Below are positions 2,254 to 30,683 of a stretch of 64,000 bases of DNA, piece after piece. The position numbers and the translations under genes are program-made. The stretch is from positions 62,001 through 126,000 of the forward strand of contig JAPOVC010000006.1 in assembly GCA_026708325.1 (NCBI GenBank). The letters are read 5' to 3'. The notes beneath the pieces are model-generated. The model made no database searches. It saw nothing but the letters and a program-made list of their open reading frames with translations, and had not been told where the DNA came from. The DNA is from Anaerolineaceae bacterium. Its GTDB lineage: Bacteria; Chloroflexota; Anaerolineae; Aggregatilineales; Phototrophicaceae. Every line of letters starts with the position of its first letter. The stretch's first letter is position 1.

Positions 2254-3039
2254 ATGCGGCCCCTGACCTTCGTCCACCTCAGCGATTCGCACGTGATGAG
2301 CGACCCCGACAGGAAGGGCATGGAGCGGGGCCCTTCCCTCCCGGGCGCTGAAGCCTTGTTAAGCGAGATTGAAAGGCTGCCCGCGCCGGTTGACTTCGTG
2401 CTGCATAGCGGCGATGTCGTCCACGACCCGGAACGTGAAAAAGAGTATCGGCGGGCGCTTGAACTGTATCTTCGCCTGGGCGTGCCGGTGTACTACCTGC
2501 CGGGCAACCACGACCGCAGCCTGTGGTTCCAGCGTGTCCTGCGAAACTGTGAAGCCCCCGGACTCCATGCCGACCAGGAATTCGAGGCCGGCGGCGTCCA
2601 GTTCCTCTTGCTGGACAGCAGCATCCCGCAGGAGGAGGGAGGCTTCGGCCGCCTCGAGCCGGAGCAGCTGGCCTGGCTGGAGGAGCGCTGCGCGGCGCCG
2701 GACAGTCGTCCCCTTGTGGTGGCGTTGCACCACCATCCGCTGCCCCTGGCCGTACCCTGGCGGGACCAATACGGCCTGCGCAATGGTGAGGCCCTGCATG
2801 AGATCCTGCTGCTGGCGCGGCTGCGGCTGCGCTGCGTCCTCCACGGGCATATTCACGAGAGCCTGCTGACCCTGCGCGACGGGATCCCCTACCAGAGCGT
2901 GCGCAGCAGCTGGTTCCAGACGCAGACCTGGCCCGGCCAGGGTCAGGAATTCCCTGAGCCGCTCCAGTGGCCGGGCTACAACCTGGTCACGCTGACCGAA
3001 CGCGACACCTTCATACGGCATTGCCGGGTGCGTCCATGA
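2254..3039 (+). CDS. Metallophosphoesterase, CpdA-like (tandem copy 2)
   Basis: A 261-aa paralogue of the 1414 gene with the same complete metal-binding set (DSH, GDVVHD, GNHDR, HHHPL, GHIHE). It starts 48 nt after copy 1. The spacer before it and the spacer before copy 3 resemble each other (both begin GGCGGGACCG and end GGGTGATCGC before the ATG), so the duplication unit included the intergenic DNA. The central segment, from the GNHDR motif to the LEPEQLAWLEERC block, is almost unchanged from copy 1. Substrate unknown. Confidence 0.9.
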   Translation: MRPLTFVHLSDSHVMSDPDRKGMERGPSLPGAEALLSEIERLPAPVDFVLHSGDVVHDPEREKEYRRALELYLRLGVPVYYLPGNHDRSLWFQRVLRNCEAPGLHADQEFEAGGVQFLLLDSSIPQEEGGFGRLEPEQLAWLEERCAAPDSRPLVVALHHHPLPLAVPWRDQYGLRNGEALHEILLLARLRLRCVLHGHIHESLLTLRDGIPYQSVRSSWFQTQTWPGQGQEFPEPLQWPGYNLVTLTERDTFIRHCRVRP

Positions 3040-3088
3040 GGCGGGACCGATTCGGGTACAGGGGCGCGGCCATCTGGTGGGTGATCGC

Positions 3089-3874
3089 ATGCGGCCCCTG
3101 ACCTTCGTCCACCTCAGCGATTCGCATCTGATGGCGGACCCTCACAGCGTGGGGACGGACTTCGTGTCCGCGCTCGCGGCCACCGGGGCCCTGCTGCGTG
3201 ACATCGAGGCGCTGTCCGCCCCCCTTGAGTTTGTGCTTCATACGGGCGACGTAAACCACGACCCGCAGCGGGAAGACGACTATCGGCGGACGCTTGAGCT
3301 TTTCAGTCGCCTGGGCGTGCCGGTCCACTTTCTGCCGGGCAATCACGACCGCAGCCCGTGGCTGCAGCGTGTGCTTCAGGGCGTCGAGGATCCCGGCCCT
3401 CACGCCGACCGGGAGTTTGAGGCCGGCGGCGTGCAGTTTCTGCTGCTGGACAGCACAGTCCCGCGGGAGGAGGGAGGCCACGGTCGCCTGGAGCCGGAGC
3501 AGCTGGCCTGGCTGGAGGGTCGCTGCGCGGCGCCGGACGGTCGGCCGCTGGTGGTGGTGTTGCATCACAACCCCCTGTCGTTGGGAGTGTCCTGGCCGGA
3601 GGAGTTGATTCTGCGTAACGGGGAGGCGCTGCACGAGATTCTCACGCTGGCGCGGCATCGCCTGCGCTGCGTGCTCTACGGGCACATCCACGAAAGCCTG
3701 CTGACCCTGCGCGACGGCATCCCCTATCACAGCGTGCGCGGCAGCTGGTTTCAGTTAAGGACCTGGTACGGCCAGACGTCTCTTGGGCCGGAGCCGCTAC
3801 AGTGGCCCGGTTACAACCTGGTCACCCTGACGGAACGCGACACCTTCGTCCGGCACTGCCGCGTGCGTCTGTGA
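3089..3874 (+). CDS. Metallophosphoesterase, CpdA-like (tandem copy 3)
   Basis: A 261-aa paralogue with intact motifs (DSH, GDVNHD, GNHDR, HHNPL, GHIHE). An in-frame GTG at 3077 would add four residues, but the ATG at 3089 aligns exactly with the start of copy 2 and follows the same GGGTGATCGC spacer, so it is preferred. In this copy and in copy 4 the third His of the HHH block is Asn. The ATPase/PIN-like module follows 81 nt downstream, and the array resumes only at 5835. Confidence 0.9.
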   Translation: MRPLTFVHLSDSHLMADPHSVGTDFVSALAATGALLRDIEALSAPLEFVLHTGDVNHDPQREDDYRRTLELFSRLGVPVHFLPGNHDRSPWLQRVLQGVEDPGPHADREFEAGGVQFLLLDSTVPREEGGHGRLEPEQLAWLEGRCAAPDGRPLVVVLHHNPLSLGVSWPEELILRNGEALHEILTLARHRLRCVLYGHIHESLLTLRDGIPYHSVRGSWFQLRTWYGQTSLGPEPLQWPGYNLVTLTERDTFVRHCRVRL

Positions 3875-3904: not shown

Positions 3905-3932
3905 TTCAGATTGTCAGGCTCAGATGTATACT
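3905..3932 (+). promoter_or_regulatory. Candidate sigma-70 promoter of the ATPase/PIN-like module
   Basis: TTCAGA (3905-3910), a 16-nt spacer and TATACT (3927-3932) lie 23 nt upstream of the ATPase start codon. A near-consensus Shine-Dalgarno AGGAGGT follows at 3944-3950. The -35 is weak (4 of 6), the -10 is good. The phosphoesterase copies show nothing comparable, so the module seems to bring its own expression signals. Confidence 0.5.
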
Positions 3933-3955
3933 GAGGGACATTCAGGAGGTCAGCC

Positions 3956-5287
3956 ATGGCTGAAAAACCTCAGGGCATCACGGCGATTACCGTGGGCGGC
4001 TACAAGTCCATCCGCGACGAGACGACCATCGAAATCCGCCCGCTGACCATCCTCGCCGGCGCGAACAGTTCCGGCAAGTCCAGCATCATGCAACCGATGT
4101 TGATGATGAAGCAGACTTTGGATGCGACCTATGATCCCGGGCCGCTTCGTATAGATGGGCCCAACGTCACGTTTACAGAATACGAGCAGTTTGTTCCCAA
4201 GTCGCGGAAGCAAGGCGACCACGTGATGGTCGCTGCTTTTAAATCGCGGGCCAAAGTCTTTGCCTTTAATCAGGAAATGTATCTGAATAACGAATTTACT
4301 ATTGGGGAGAGCAACAACGGCAACAATGTAGTCCGCCTGTCAAAAATGTCGAGTGATTATCTTCACAGTGACATTGTCATTTCCCCGGAGATGACCAGTG
4401 CTGACATAACCAGGCATGTCCCTTACGTTTCTGATGGAGAGTGGGAGGTTGTGCCGAAGAGATGTTTTCTTTATCTGGAGAAAACAGATACCCAAAATGT
4501 ACCAGGATGGGAGTTAACAATCAGTCACACTAGCCCGTTTGTCAATCCAGCCTCCGTTTTGGAGCCCGCAATAGCAACCCTGATCCATGTTCCTGGCTTG
4601 CGGGGCATTCCTTCGCGGGCGTATCCTGTCGCCCATGTCCAGGGTCCCGGATTCCCCGGTCATTTCCAGCACTATGTCGGGAGTTTGCTATTGCAATGGC
4701 TGGAGGAAAGCGACGCAAGTTTCAGTCTAACGGAAAAAGATCTTATCCACTTGAACTTGACAAAATGGGTCAAACCGCAACGTGTTGACGACACCAGAAT
4801 TGAAATTCTGGTGGGACGATTGCCTGTTAGTGCACAAGCAAACCCCAGGGATGATCTGGTCAACATCGCCGACGTTGGGATTGGAGTCTCACAGGTTCTG
4901 CCCGTCATTGTTGCGCTCATTGCAGCCCAACCGGGACAGATGGTCTACATTGAGCAACCGGAGATGCATTTGCATCCAAACGCCCAGGTTGCGTTGGCAG
5001 GCGTGATAGCTGATGCAGCAAAGCGGGGTGTGCGAGTCGTCGCTGAAACACACAGTTCGTTACTTTTACAGGGTGCAATGACGCTGATTGCCCAGGACAA
5101 GCTTGATCATGAAGATGTAATGCTCCACTGGTTTACACGTGATGATGAAGGCTATACAAAAGTCGACAGTGTGGAACCGGACAGAAACGGGGCCTACGGT
5201 GATTGGCCGGAAGACTTTGGAGACGTTGAACTGGACATCACGGGGAGATATCTGGATGCTGTTGCCGATCGTGAATTGGTGACGTGA
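3956..5287 (+). CDS. AAA/SMC-type ATPase (AAA_15/AAA_21, DUF3696-like), partner of a PIN-like nuclease
   Basis: A 443-aa ABC/SMC-class ATPase. Walker A is GANSSGKS (residues 35-42). Near the C-terminus lie the Walker B/D-loop block IEQPEMHLHP and the switch motif ETHSSLLL. Between them is a ~270-residue divergent insertion. At 443 aa it is too short for an OLD protein and shows no TOPRIM nuclease block, so catalysis would come from a partner. A single nt separates its stop from the next gene. After its first ~130 bp the DNA is clearly AT-richer than its neighbours, with many A/T third positions, which suggests horizontal acquisition. Such ATPases occur in Gabija, Septu, PARIS and retron defence systems; this pairing is not one I can name. 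Confidence 0.8.
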   Translation: MAEKPQGITAITVGGYKSIRDETTIEIRPLTILAGANSSGKSSIMQPMLMMKQTLDATYDPGPLRIDGPNVTFTEYEQFVPKSRKQGDHVMVAAFKSRAKVFAFNQEMYLNNEFTIGESNNGNNVVRLSKMSSDYLHSDIVISPEMTSADITRHVPYVSDGEWEVVPKRCFLYLEKTDTQNVPGWELTISHTSPFVNPASVLEPAIATLIHVPGLRGIPSRAYPVAHVQGPGFPGHFQHYVGSLLLQWLEESDASFSLTEKDLIHLNLTKWVKPQRVDDTRIEILVGRLPVSAQANPRDDLVNIADVGIGVSQVLPVIVALIAAQPGQMVYIEQPEMHLHPNAQVALAGVIADAAKRGVRVVAETHSSLLLQGAMTLIAQDKLDHEDVMLHWFTRDDEGYTKVDSVEPDRNGAYGDWPEDFGDVELDITGRYLDAVADRELVT

Positions 5288-5288
5288 G

Positions 5289-5834
5289 GTGCCTGTTGCA
5301 CGACAAAGGCGACTGGTCATTGATTCGGATGTCACGGGTGCTGCCGGAGACGAAGATGCAGAAAACGCGACGGCGGCGAATTGCCACAGATTTCTGGTCA
5401 GTGTGTTGGCATGCGAGCACTACATTGTGCGCACTCCCGAGATCAAGGACGAATGGCGGCGTCATCGCTCCAGATTCTCAAACAGGTGGTTATTCCGCAT
5501 GCACGCAAGGAAGTTGGTGATTGATTTGGGGAACGTGGAAAGCCAAAGTTTAAGAGAGAAACTGTCCCGACAAGCCACTAATGAAGATTCAATGGAACAG
5601 ATGCTAAAGGACGCCCATTTGCTAGAGGGTGCAATGGCAACAGACAGGACAATTGCATCCCGGAATGATTCCGAAAGGAATCTGTTTCGCAATGTGAGCA
5701 GTAGAATTGGCGAAATCCGTGGCATCATGTGGGTCAACCCGGACAGGGAATCCGAGTTCTGCCTGGACTGGCTCAGGCGCGGCGCGCCGACCGAACCCAA
5801 ACGACAGTTCGGTTATGCACACAGAGATCACTAG
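5289..5834 (+). CDS. PIN-like domain nuclease candidate paired with the ATPase
   Basis: A 181-aa protein starting at GTG 5289; the upstream frame is closed by TGA at 5280, so no earlier start is possible. The acidic pattern fits a PIN-like fold: LVIDSD at the N-terminus (Asp12, Asp14), PEIKDEW (Glu55), then KDAHLLEGA (Asp108) and ATDRTIAS (Asp119). PIN domains are metal-dependent RNases, or less often DNases. The gene begins 1 nt after the ATPase stop, so the two are translationally coupled. It is AT-rich like the ATPase gene. Its TAG stop abuts the ATG of phosphoesterase copy 4 with no spacer. The nuclease call rests on motif spacing only; no close homologue was searched. Confidence 0.6.
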   Translation: MPVARQRRLVIDSDVTGAAGDEDAENATAANCHRFLVSVLACEHYIVRTPEIKDEWRRHRSRFSNRWLFRMHARKLVIDLGNVESQSLREKLSRQATNEDSMEQMLKDAHLLEGAMATDRTIASRNDSERNLFRNVSSRIGEIRGIMWVNPDRESEFCLDWLRRGAPTEPKRQFGYAHRDH

Positions 5835-6623
5835 ATGCAGCCCCTGACCTTCGTCCACATCAGCGACTCGCACCTGGCGACGGACCCCGCGTGGAGCGGG
5901 CCGCTGACCGACATCCTGCCGCGGCCGGGCGCCGAAGCGCTGGTGCGCGAGATCGCCGCGCTGCCCATGCCGATCGACTTCGTGCTGCATACCGGCGACG
6001 TCCACAGCGACCCTGAACGCCCGCAGGACTATCAGCAGGCCGCCGACCTTTACCGTCAGTTGCGCATGCCGGTGTATTTCCTGCCCGGCAACCACGACCG
6101 CAGCGACTGGCTGCAGCGTGAACTCATGGGAATCCACGAGCCGGCGGCGCAGGCCGACCAGGAGTTCGAGATCGGCGGCGTGCAGTTTCTGCTGCTCGAC
6201 AGCAGCGCGCCGGGCGTGGACGAACACTACGGCTGGCTGGAAGCGGAACAGCTCGACTGGCTGGCGCAGCGTTGCGCGGCGGATGACCCGCGACCGCTGG
6301 TGGTGGCGCTGCACCACAACCCGCTGTCGCTGGTCGTGCCCTGGCTGGACGGCATCGTCCTGCGCAACGGAGAAGCGCTGCACGAGGCGCTCCTGCCGGC
6401 GCGGGCGCGACTGCGCTGCGTGTTTTACGGTCACATTCACGAGAGCATTCTGACGCTGCGCGACGGCATCCCCTACCAGAGCGTGCGCAGCAGCTGGTTC
6501 CAGACGCAGACCTGGCACGGCCAGGCCGACCCGTTCAAGGAGCCGCTGCACTGGCCGGGCTACAACCTCGTCACCCTGACCGAACGCGACACCTTCGTGC
6601 GCCACTGCCGGGTGCGCCTGTGA
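5835..6623 (+). CDS. Metallophosphoesterase, CpdA-like (tandem copy 4)
   Basis: A 262-aa paralogue of the three upstream copies with all metal-binding motifs (DSH, GDVHSD, GNHDR, HHNPL, GHIHE). It is more diverged in DNA than copies 1-3. The ATG directly follows the TAG stop of the PIN-like gene, so it may now be translated by coupling to the inserted module; only a weak GAGAT lies upstream. Its own stop overlaps the GTG of the next gene by 4 nt, which could tie it to the downstream envelope operon. Confidence 0.9.
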   Translation: MQPLTFVHISDSHLATDPAWSGPLTDILPRPGAEALVREIAALPMPIDFVLHTGDVHSDPERPQDYQQAADLYRQLRMPVYFLPGNHDRSDWLQRELMGIHEPAAQADQEFEIGGVQFLLLDSSAPGVDEHYGWLEAEQLDWLAQRCAADDPRPLVVALHHNPLSLVVPWLDGIVLRNGEALHEALLPARARLRCVFYGHIHESILTLRDGIPYQSVRSSWFQTQTWHGQADPFKEPLHWPGYNLVTLTERDTFVRHCRVRL

Positions 6624-29166: not shown

Positions 29167-29240
29167 ATCGCAGCAAGACAGCGTTGGCCTGCGCAGGCGG
29201 CCACGCCCCTTGTCCTCCTCCGATATCCCAGGCGTGGCGC

Positions 29241-30683
29241 ATGTTCGAGACCTCTATCGTGGACCCACAGGAAGCCTGGAAAACCACGCTGAACCAGTTG
29301 GAGATTCAACTGGATCGCGGCAATTTTGACACCTGGTTGCGCGACACCGTCTTTTTGGGCTGTGAAAATGCGGCGGACGGCGAAAGCGCCAGCACCTTCA
29401 CCATTGGCGTGCGCAACAGCTTTGCGCGAGACAACTTGCAACACCGCCTCTATCGCAGCGTGCGCCGTGTGCTGCGCGACGTCTATGGCAGCGAGGTTGA
29501 GTTGCGCTTTGAGGTGCATCACCCGGAAAAGGTCGACAACGGCAGCGATGCCAACCGCGAAGACAGCAAGCCCCTGTTTCGCTATGCCTCGCGCCAGGGT
29601 GGGCAGGGCGCGGCGCCGGCGCGACCGGCGGGCCAGCCGCCGCAGGTCGAGTTGCCCGAGAGTCATCTCAACCCGCGCTACACCTTCGACCGCTTTGTGA
29701 CCAGCAATGCCAACATGATGCTGTATTCGGCCGCCCGCGCCGTCGCCGAGGAGCCGGCGGCCCGCTACAACCCCTTCGTCATTTACGGCGGTGTGGGCCT
29801 GGGCAAGACGCACTTGTTGCAGGCCATCGCCAATGAAAGCCAGCAGGGCAACTATCGCGCGCTTTACATCCCCTCCGAGGGCTTTATCAACGACCTGGTC
29901 AACGCCATCCGTTATCGCACGACCGCGCTGTTCCGCGAAAAGTACCGCTCGGTCGACCTCTTGCTGATCGACGACATCCAGTTCATCGCGGGCAAGGAAA
30001 GCACGCAGGAAGAGTTTTTCCACACCTTCAATGCGCTGCACATCGACAACAAGCAGATCGTCGTCGCCTCCGACCGGCACCCCAGCGAACTGGAATTGCT
30101 GGAAGACCGCTTGCGCTCGCGTTTTGAAGGCGGCCTGGTGATTGACATCCAGTTGCCGGAATTTGAGACGCGCGTGGCCATCGTGGAAAGCTGGGCGCAG
30201 GAACGGGGCCGCAGCCTGCCGCGCTCCATCAGCGAAAAGCTGGCGGATGGCGCCCGCAACAGCATCCGCGAGCTGGAGGGCCTGTTCACCAGCATGCTGG
30301 CCACCATGGACCTGGCGGACGAGCCCTTCTCCACGACGGCGGCCGGGCGCGTGGTGCAGCAACACGAAAGCGCGCGGGCGCGCCAGGTGAAAATCACCAT
30401 TGACCAGGTGCTGACTGCCACGGCAGCCGCCCACAACCTGACAGTGATGGACCTGACCGGCAAGAATCGCTCGGGGCATATCAGCCGCGCGCGTCACGTC
30501 GCCATGTACCTGGCGCGCGACCTGACGGAAGCTTCCTTTCCCCAGATCGGGCGGGCCTTCGGCATGCGCAGCCATTCGACGGCGATGCACGGTCATGAGC
30601 GGGTCGCCGGTCAGATGCAGAAGGACGAGGCCTTTCGTTACGAGTTGCTGGCCCTGCGCGAACGCATCATGAAGGGCGAGTAA
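29241..30683 (+). CDS. dnaA: Chromosomal replication initiator DnaA
   Basis: A 480-aa protein with the full DnaA layout. Domain I is at ~1-90 (WKTTLNQLEIQL), followed by a linker to ~140. The AAA+ domain has Walker A GGVGLGKTHLL and Walker B LLIDDIQFIAGK. The C-terminal DNA-binding domain contains HVAMYLARDLTEASFPQIG. The signature usually written GGRDHSTV is MRSHSTAMHG here, a somewhat divergent box-recognition loop. The ATG at 29241 is preferred over an in-frame start at 29184 because the promoter and homology fit it. dnaN and recF are not adjacent, unlike many bacteria. Confidence 0.97.
   Translation: MFETSIVDPQEAWKTTLNQLEIQLDRGNFDTWLRDTVFLGCENAADGESASTFTIGVRNSFARDNLQHRLYRSVRRVLRDVYGSEVELRFEVHHPEKVDNGSDANREDSKPLFRYASRQGGQGAAPARPAGQPPQVELPESHLNPRYTFDRFVTSNANMMLYSAARAVAEEPAARYNPFVIYGGVGLGKTHLLQAIANESQQGNYRALYIPSEGFINDLVNAIRYRTTALFREKYRSVDLLLIDDIQFIAGKESTQEEFFHTFNALHIDNKQIVVASDRHPSELELLEDRLRSRFEGGLVIDIQLPEFETRVAIVESWAQERGRSLPRSISEKLADGARNSIRELEGLFTSMLATMDLADEPFSTTAAGRVVQQHESARARQVKITIDQVLTATAAAHNLTVMDLTGKNRSGHISRARHVAMYLARDLTEASFPQIGRAFGMRSHSTAMHGHERVAGQMQKDEAFRYELLALRERIMKGE

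Follow-up and report, generated by a model that had tools for sequence, protein, structure and literature searches.

The described systems that come closest to the locus analysed here combine an ATPase with one or more partner proteins. In Septu and retron PtuA-PtuB, separate genes code for an ATPase with an SMC-type head (PtuA) and an HNH nuclease (PtuB). PARIS (AriA-AriB) likewise has a two-gene layout, in which an AAA_15/AAA_21 ATPase accompanies a separate nuclease of the DUF4435/Toprim type (AriB), and deletion of either gene is non-toxic (PMC9122126). In Gabija and the OLD nucleases the Toprim domain is instead fused to the ATPase. Menshen (NsnA, NsnB, NsnC) places its partner after an NsnB-type ATPase, and VapBC modules join a PIN-fold toxin, VapC, to a small DNA-binding antitoxin. 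In those portions of a toxin-antitoxin/defence network that are considered here, AAA ATPases are paired with Toprim, RloB, HNH and HEPN partners (PMC10440598), so that a nuclease partner is to be expected of this ATPase class; a PIN partner is not among the pairs noted in the same portions of that source.

A two-gene locus with its own leader

The window (the whole stretch of 64,000 nucleotides that was analysed) contains a gene pair that the initial annotation had read as a possible defence system, composed of an ATPase and a PIN-like nuclease, and this interpretation is partly supported by the observations presented below. The relevant features are:

1414-2205, 2254-3039, 3077-3874 and 5835-6623: calcineurin-like metallophosphatase genes, a tandem array of four that flanks the pair
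3905-3932, + strand: probable promoter, judged from the sequence (TTCAGA at 3905-3910, 16-nt spacer, TATACT at 3927-3932)
3944-3950, + strand: Shine-Dalgarno sequence AGGAGGT, 5 nt 5' of the ATPase ATG, conserved in both congeneric genomes
3956-5287, + strand: ATPase gene (A), ATG start, 443 aa
5289-5834, + strand: predicted PIN-fold nuclease gene (B), GTG start, 181 aa

Both open reading frames were confirmed, with a gap of 1 nt between the ATPase stop and the PIN start, and the PIN stop abuts the ATG of the fourth metallophosphatase gene (5835). The annotated promoter and ribosome-binding site also withstood comparison: the leader (TTCAGA, TATACT, AGGAGGT) precedes the pair in both congeners and was not found upstream of the neighbouring metallophosphatase genes, which argues that it belongs to the pair. 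The promoter region, TATACTGAGGG, occurs once in the window and is kept in both congeneric genomes. The noted AT-richness is equally real, with a GC content of 51.4% for the ATPase gene and 52.9% for the PIN gene, versus 67-69% for the flanking metallophosphatase genes. The one other AT-richer stretch of the window (58.5% GC) holds a dnaA-like gene (29184-30683), suggesting that a replication origin lies close to it.

The metallophosphatases of the array are about 65-75% identical to one another. Both congeners also possess such an array, with a differing arrangement of copies, and the pair lies inside it in all three genomes. A functional link between pair and array was considered and rejected, as metallophosphatases do not stand out among the neighbours of the pair elsewhere; the array appears to be only a site. 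Residence within a repeat array in this genus, together with a GC content below that of the flanks in 42 of 49 loci, could also point to a selfish cassette that aids only its own persistence and brings no benefit to the host. Given that no integrase or transposase gene adjoins the pair in the window, and that related pairs have long resided at fixed sites, we consider this explanation very improbable.

The ATPase is an SMC-type head with an unusual Walker B motif

The product of gene A matches the Pfam AAA_21 model (2.6e-22; class AAA_21/AAA_15), with a weak match to DUF3696, and its best PADLOC match is NsnB of the anti-phage system Menshen (E 3e-51, 173 bits, residues 8-423). Its predicted structure (pLDDT 91) resembles the heads of SMC, Rad50 and PtuA (VIA Z 18-21). 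The alignment with PtuA extends over the full length (Z 18-19) at about 13% sequence identity; the fold matches PtuA, but the sequence is closer to NsnB. No Toprim match was obtained with Pfam in the 443 residues, and the structural matches span residues 3-425 as an SMC-type head. On the predicted model, therefore, the first protein is an SMC/Rad50/PtuA-type head devoid of a nuclease domain of its own, just as had been annotated.

A comparison of 65 relatives showed that the Walker A lysine (Lys41) is invariant (65/65) and that neither the Walker A residues nor an ETHS motif (364-367) vary at all. The Walker B motif takes the form EQPE (333-336 in the window protein) in 64 of the 65, with a glutamine sitting where the catalytic glutamate is usual. 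By analogy with ABC-type ATPases, this glutamine suggests slow hydrolysis and an ATP-held state, and its near-invariance poses the question of whether the head is held in the ATP-bound form or cycles. Menshen NsnB and the sister ATPases of P2-like phages likewise show the pattern E[QN]PE. In one Poribacteria bin (L088, 8693-11281) the ATPase is preceded, in the same frame, by some 420 residues of TPR-like repeats, possibly a natural fusion.

The second protein is predicted to adopt a PIN fold

The 181-aa protein on its own gave no Pfam match above the cut-off, and PIN-clan models matched weakly a minority of its relatives. A PIN-profile sequence search of solved structures returned chance matches only, so that the assignment of the fold rests on the structural model. 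This model (pLDDT 94.3) has PIN proteins as its top structural matches, among them VapC, HARP, Nob1, SMG6 and Utp24 (VIA Z up to 10.3, the value for VapC21), the nearest folds being the VapC toxins, the minimal RNase P HARP, and Nob1. The fold of the model is clear, and we accordingly regard the second protein as a predicted PIN-fold nuclease, as first proposed, and not as a protein unrelated to nucleases. The protein also has an additional stretch at its C terminus, which bears a conserved W-x-N-P motif.

The acidic residues originally named as catalytic candidates fared unevenly across 73 relatives: E55 and D108 are each conserved in 73/73 and D119 in 70/73, but the D12 position holds aspartate in 60 and asparagine in 13. 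D126, also conserved in 70/73, had been overlooked, and the window protein itself has N126 instead.

In four loci (L019, L023, L060 and L065) the PIN gene is truncated, interrupted or frameshifted just downstream of an intact ATPase gene, which could reflect either decay of a costly effector or errors in the bins.

The main rival to a defence function is a toxin-antitoxin-like addiction or stress role, with the PIN protein as toxin and the ATPase as antitoxin or regulator, the module being selected for growth control and not for phage defence. The VapC-type toxins as nearest folds, the overlapping or adjoining genes, and the long residence of the pair at a single site in Poribacteria are all in keeping with it, and the broken PIN genes beside intact ATPases in L019, L023 and L060 are as expected if the PIN protein is the costly part. 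However, no small DNA-binding antitoxin is found, the broken PIN genes were seen in metagenome bins, where assembly error may account for some of them, and the non-toxic single-gene deletions of PARIS (PMC9122126) provide a precedent for an ATPase-nuclease pair that need not be a toxin-antitoxin system. We therefore judge this explanation unlikely, though deserving of serious attention.

The pair is an obligate unit with a patchy distribution

A profile search with the ATPase recovered 80 loci from other genomes, and in 79 of these a relative of the PIN protein is encoded directly 3' of it, often with a 4-base overlap; the remaining locus (L019) carries a truncated PIN remnant downstream. The reverse search, with the PIN protein or its profile, reached 13 other genomes, 12 of which have the ATPase directly upstream, while in the other the contig ends. 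The same arrangement is seen on four viral contigs found with the ATPase profile. The ATPase and the PIN protein are hence an obligate unit.

Among the hosts are Chloroflexota, Poribacteria, Cyanobacteria, Latescibacterota, Acidobacteriota, Planctomycetota and methanogenic archaea of the genus Methanothrix, with further copies in prophages. Nevertheless, prevalence is low: the pair was found in 8 of 400 genomes sampled from the window's phylum and in 7 of 61 from its family (the window's own genome included), so that it is missing from about 98% and 89% of these samples, respectively.

On three of the viral contigs, genes for portal, terminase and integrase lie close to the pair, indicating that it can be prophage cargo. 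These viral copies were recovered with the ATPase profile, unlike in a search of viral contigs with a single PIN sequence, which found no match; tblastn against phages and plasmids likewise found none, and no plasmid-borne match to the pair was seen. Outside Poribacteria the neighbours are mostly ordinary genes and seldom defence genes: among 139 neighbours, a raw count yields a handful of matches to methylases, Dnd/Ssp-like proteins, PD-T4-6, HEC-01A and AAA_21. The co-occurrence of the two genes is upheld (79/80), but the argument from defence islands is weak.

Alleles turn over rapidly at fixed chromosomal sites

The ATPase tree stays close to the division into phyla (16 changes, where 12 is the minimum), implying that long-distance transfer is infrequent. 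A different picture emerges at fixed sites. Between the window and one congener (G417) the flanking DNA is 86-94% identical, yet the ATPases share 47% and the PIN proteins 37% identity; similarity persists, synonymous sites included, in the leader, in the first 62 codons of the ATPase gene and in the last 24 of the PIN gene. In the other congener (G434) the flanks are more distant, yet the ATPase is closer (67%). These patterns fit recombination that replaced the core of the pair and left its conserved edges in place. In 217 locus pairs sharing at least 2 neighbours, mostly from Poribacteria, the neighbours are on average 84% identical, the ATPases 68% and the PIN proteins 65%. Poribacteria keep the pair at one conserved chromosomal site, and in this phylum the tree of the ATPase disagrees with that of the PIN protein, a strongly supported conflict that calls for 3 switches of PIN type along the ATPase tree (p-AU 0.02, the groups having been defined with the trees in view). 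Alleles at fixed sites thus diverge and are reshuffled far more quickly than the genes around them, although fast evolution by itself can be compatible with weak constraint.

The congruence of the ATPase tree with phyla, the conserved Poribacteria site, the mostly metabolic neighbours, and the likeness of the head to SMC and Rad50 would also suit a housekeeping pair, in which the SMC-like head loads or regulates the PIN protein for repair or RNA maturation, for instance in Poribacteria. Such an RNA-processing or DNA-maintenance role is hard to square with absence from most sampled genomes of the phylum and family, with prophage copies, with the divergence of alleles between congeners and with the reassortment of ATPase and PIN genes, and we regard it as improbable. 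A housekeeping context devoid of mobility throughout, which would have spoken against the annotated defence function, is not what is seen, although Poribacteria, with their conserved site, come near to it.

A proposed mechanism

In light of these observations, we favour, with moderate confidence, an effector module of two genes, probably directed against phages: an ATPase of the SMC-head type would respond to a trigger and govern a PIN-fold endoribonuclease. Judging by Septu and PARIS, the ATPase probably assembles, with nucleotide bound, into a complex in which the PIN subunits are kept inactive; a signal from phage or stress would alter this assembly and free the PIN protein to cleave RNA, halting growth before phage can be produced. 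The usual targets of PIN toxins are tRNA or rRNA loops. Complex formation, ATP gating, the RNA substrate and the anti-phage role are the elements of this scheme that we infer. As judged from sequence and its context, the last of these is likely in view of the kinship to NsnB, carriage by prophages, patchiness and allele turnover; it is weakened by the phylum-level congruence of the ATPase tree and the mostly ordinary neighbourhood, which, along with the single Poribacteria site, also weaken any simple mobile-defence reading. Against the favoured effector module we further count the lack of plasmid matches, the asparagine in place of D12 in 13 of 73 relatives, and the possibility that fast evolution denotes weak constraint.

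We also put forward, tentatively and as a somewhat doubtful extension, that the pair represents an anti-viral system, uncatalogued although widespread in bacteria and archaea, whose SMC-type ATPase, with its natural Glu-to-Gln change, restrains a PIN ribonuclease. Its alleles for sensor and effector would be swapped independently of each other at fixed chromosomal sites. Several of the lineages concerned, namely Poribacteria, Cyanobacteria and Methanothrix, have defences that are little characterised.

Relationship to known systems

PADLOC 2.0 contains no model for the PIN partner, in agreement with the earlier impression that the combination could not be named, and the PIN protein matched no PADLOC model at E values up to 10. 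A DUF3696 ATPase with a PIN protein was not found in the literature searched, coverage of which was incomplete, so that an earlier mention is possible.

The closest kin by ATPase is Menshen: both have an ATPase of the NsnB type, with related motifs (E[QN]PE, ETHS), followed by the partner gene. The pair differs in its partner, a PIN nuclease that shows no profile relationship to NsnC. Neither an NsnA nor an NsnC gene lies beside the window pair, and membership in Menshen was rejected on these grounds. Elsewhere in the window's genome NsnA gave partial matches only, NsnC did not appear among the PADLOC matches of the 73 PIN relatives (E up to 0.01), and an NsnC search of the genome is no proof of absence, since control genomes gave no signal.

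The likeness to Gabija, Septu and PARIS drawn at the outset holds for the latter two, which share separate ATPase and nuclease genes with the pair, and fails for Gabija, whose fused Toprim is absent here. In comparison with Septu, the predicted SMC-type head aligns by fold with PtuA over its whole length, with a sequence nearer to NsnB; the nuclease is of the PIN and not the HNH type, and no PtuB match was found. In comparison with PARIS, the PIN protein has no PADLOC or Pfam match to AriB. VapC-type toxins share the PIN fold and acidic residues, but lack the extra C-terminal W-x-N-P segment, and the place of their small antitoxin is taken here by an ATPase, which measures about 430-490 aa across the examined loci.

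Two pairs from P2-like phages resemble the present one in having an NsnB/HEC-03B-like ATPase followed by a single gene:

L138, 243-2913: P2-EC5 ORF555-ORF333
L139, 2032-4978: pair of Klebsiella phage Kp4845-1

Their partners differ in being longer and unrelated to the PIN protein, ORF333 showing a weak likeness to PD-(D/E)XK nucleases (E 0.08), and these pairs may be further two-gene defence modules. Menshen NsnB in Vibrio phages likewise belongs to the distant ATPase kin in P2-like phages, and its partner too is unrelated to the PIN protein. As such sister ATPases with E[QN]PE and ETHS motifs use other partners, the pair can be viewed as the PIN-effector version of a modular family: an RNase-type effector is added to NsnB/DUF3696-like ATPases whose other members use different partners, which suggests one ATPase chassis with exchangeable effectors. 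Together, the best-supported description of the ATPase-PIN pair is one that follows the general design of Septu and PARIS, built around an ATPase of the NsnB type.
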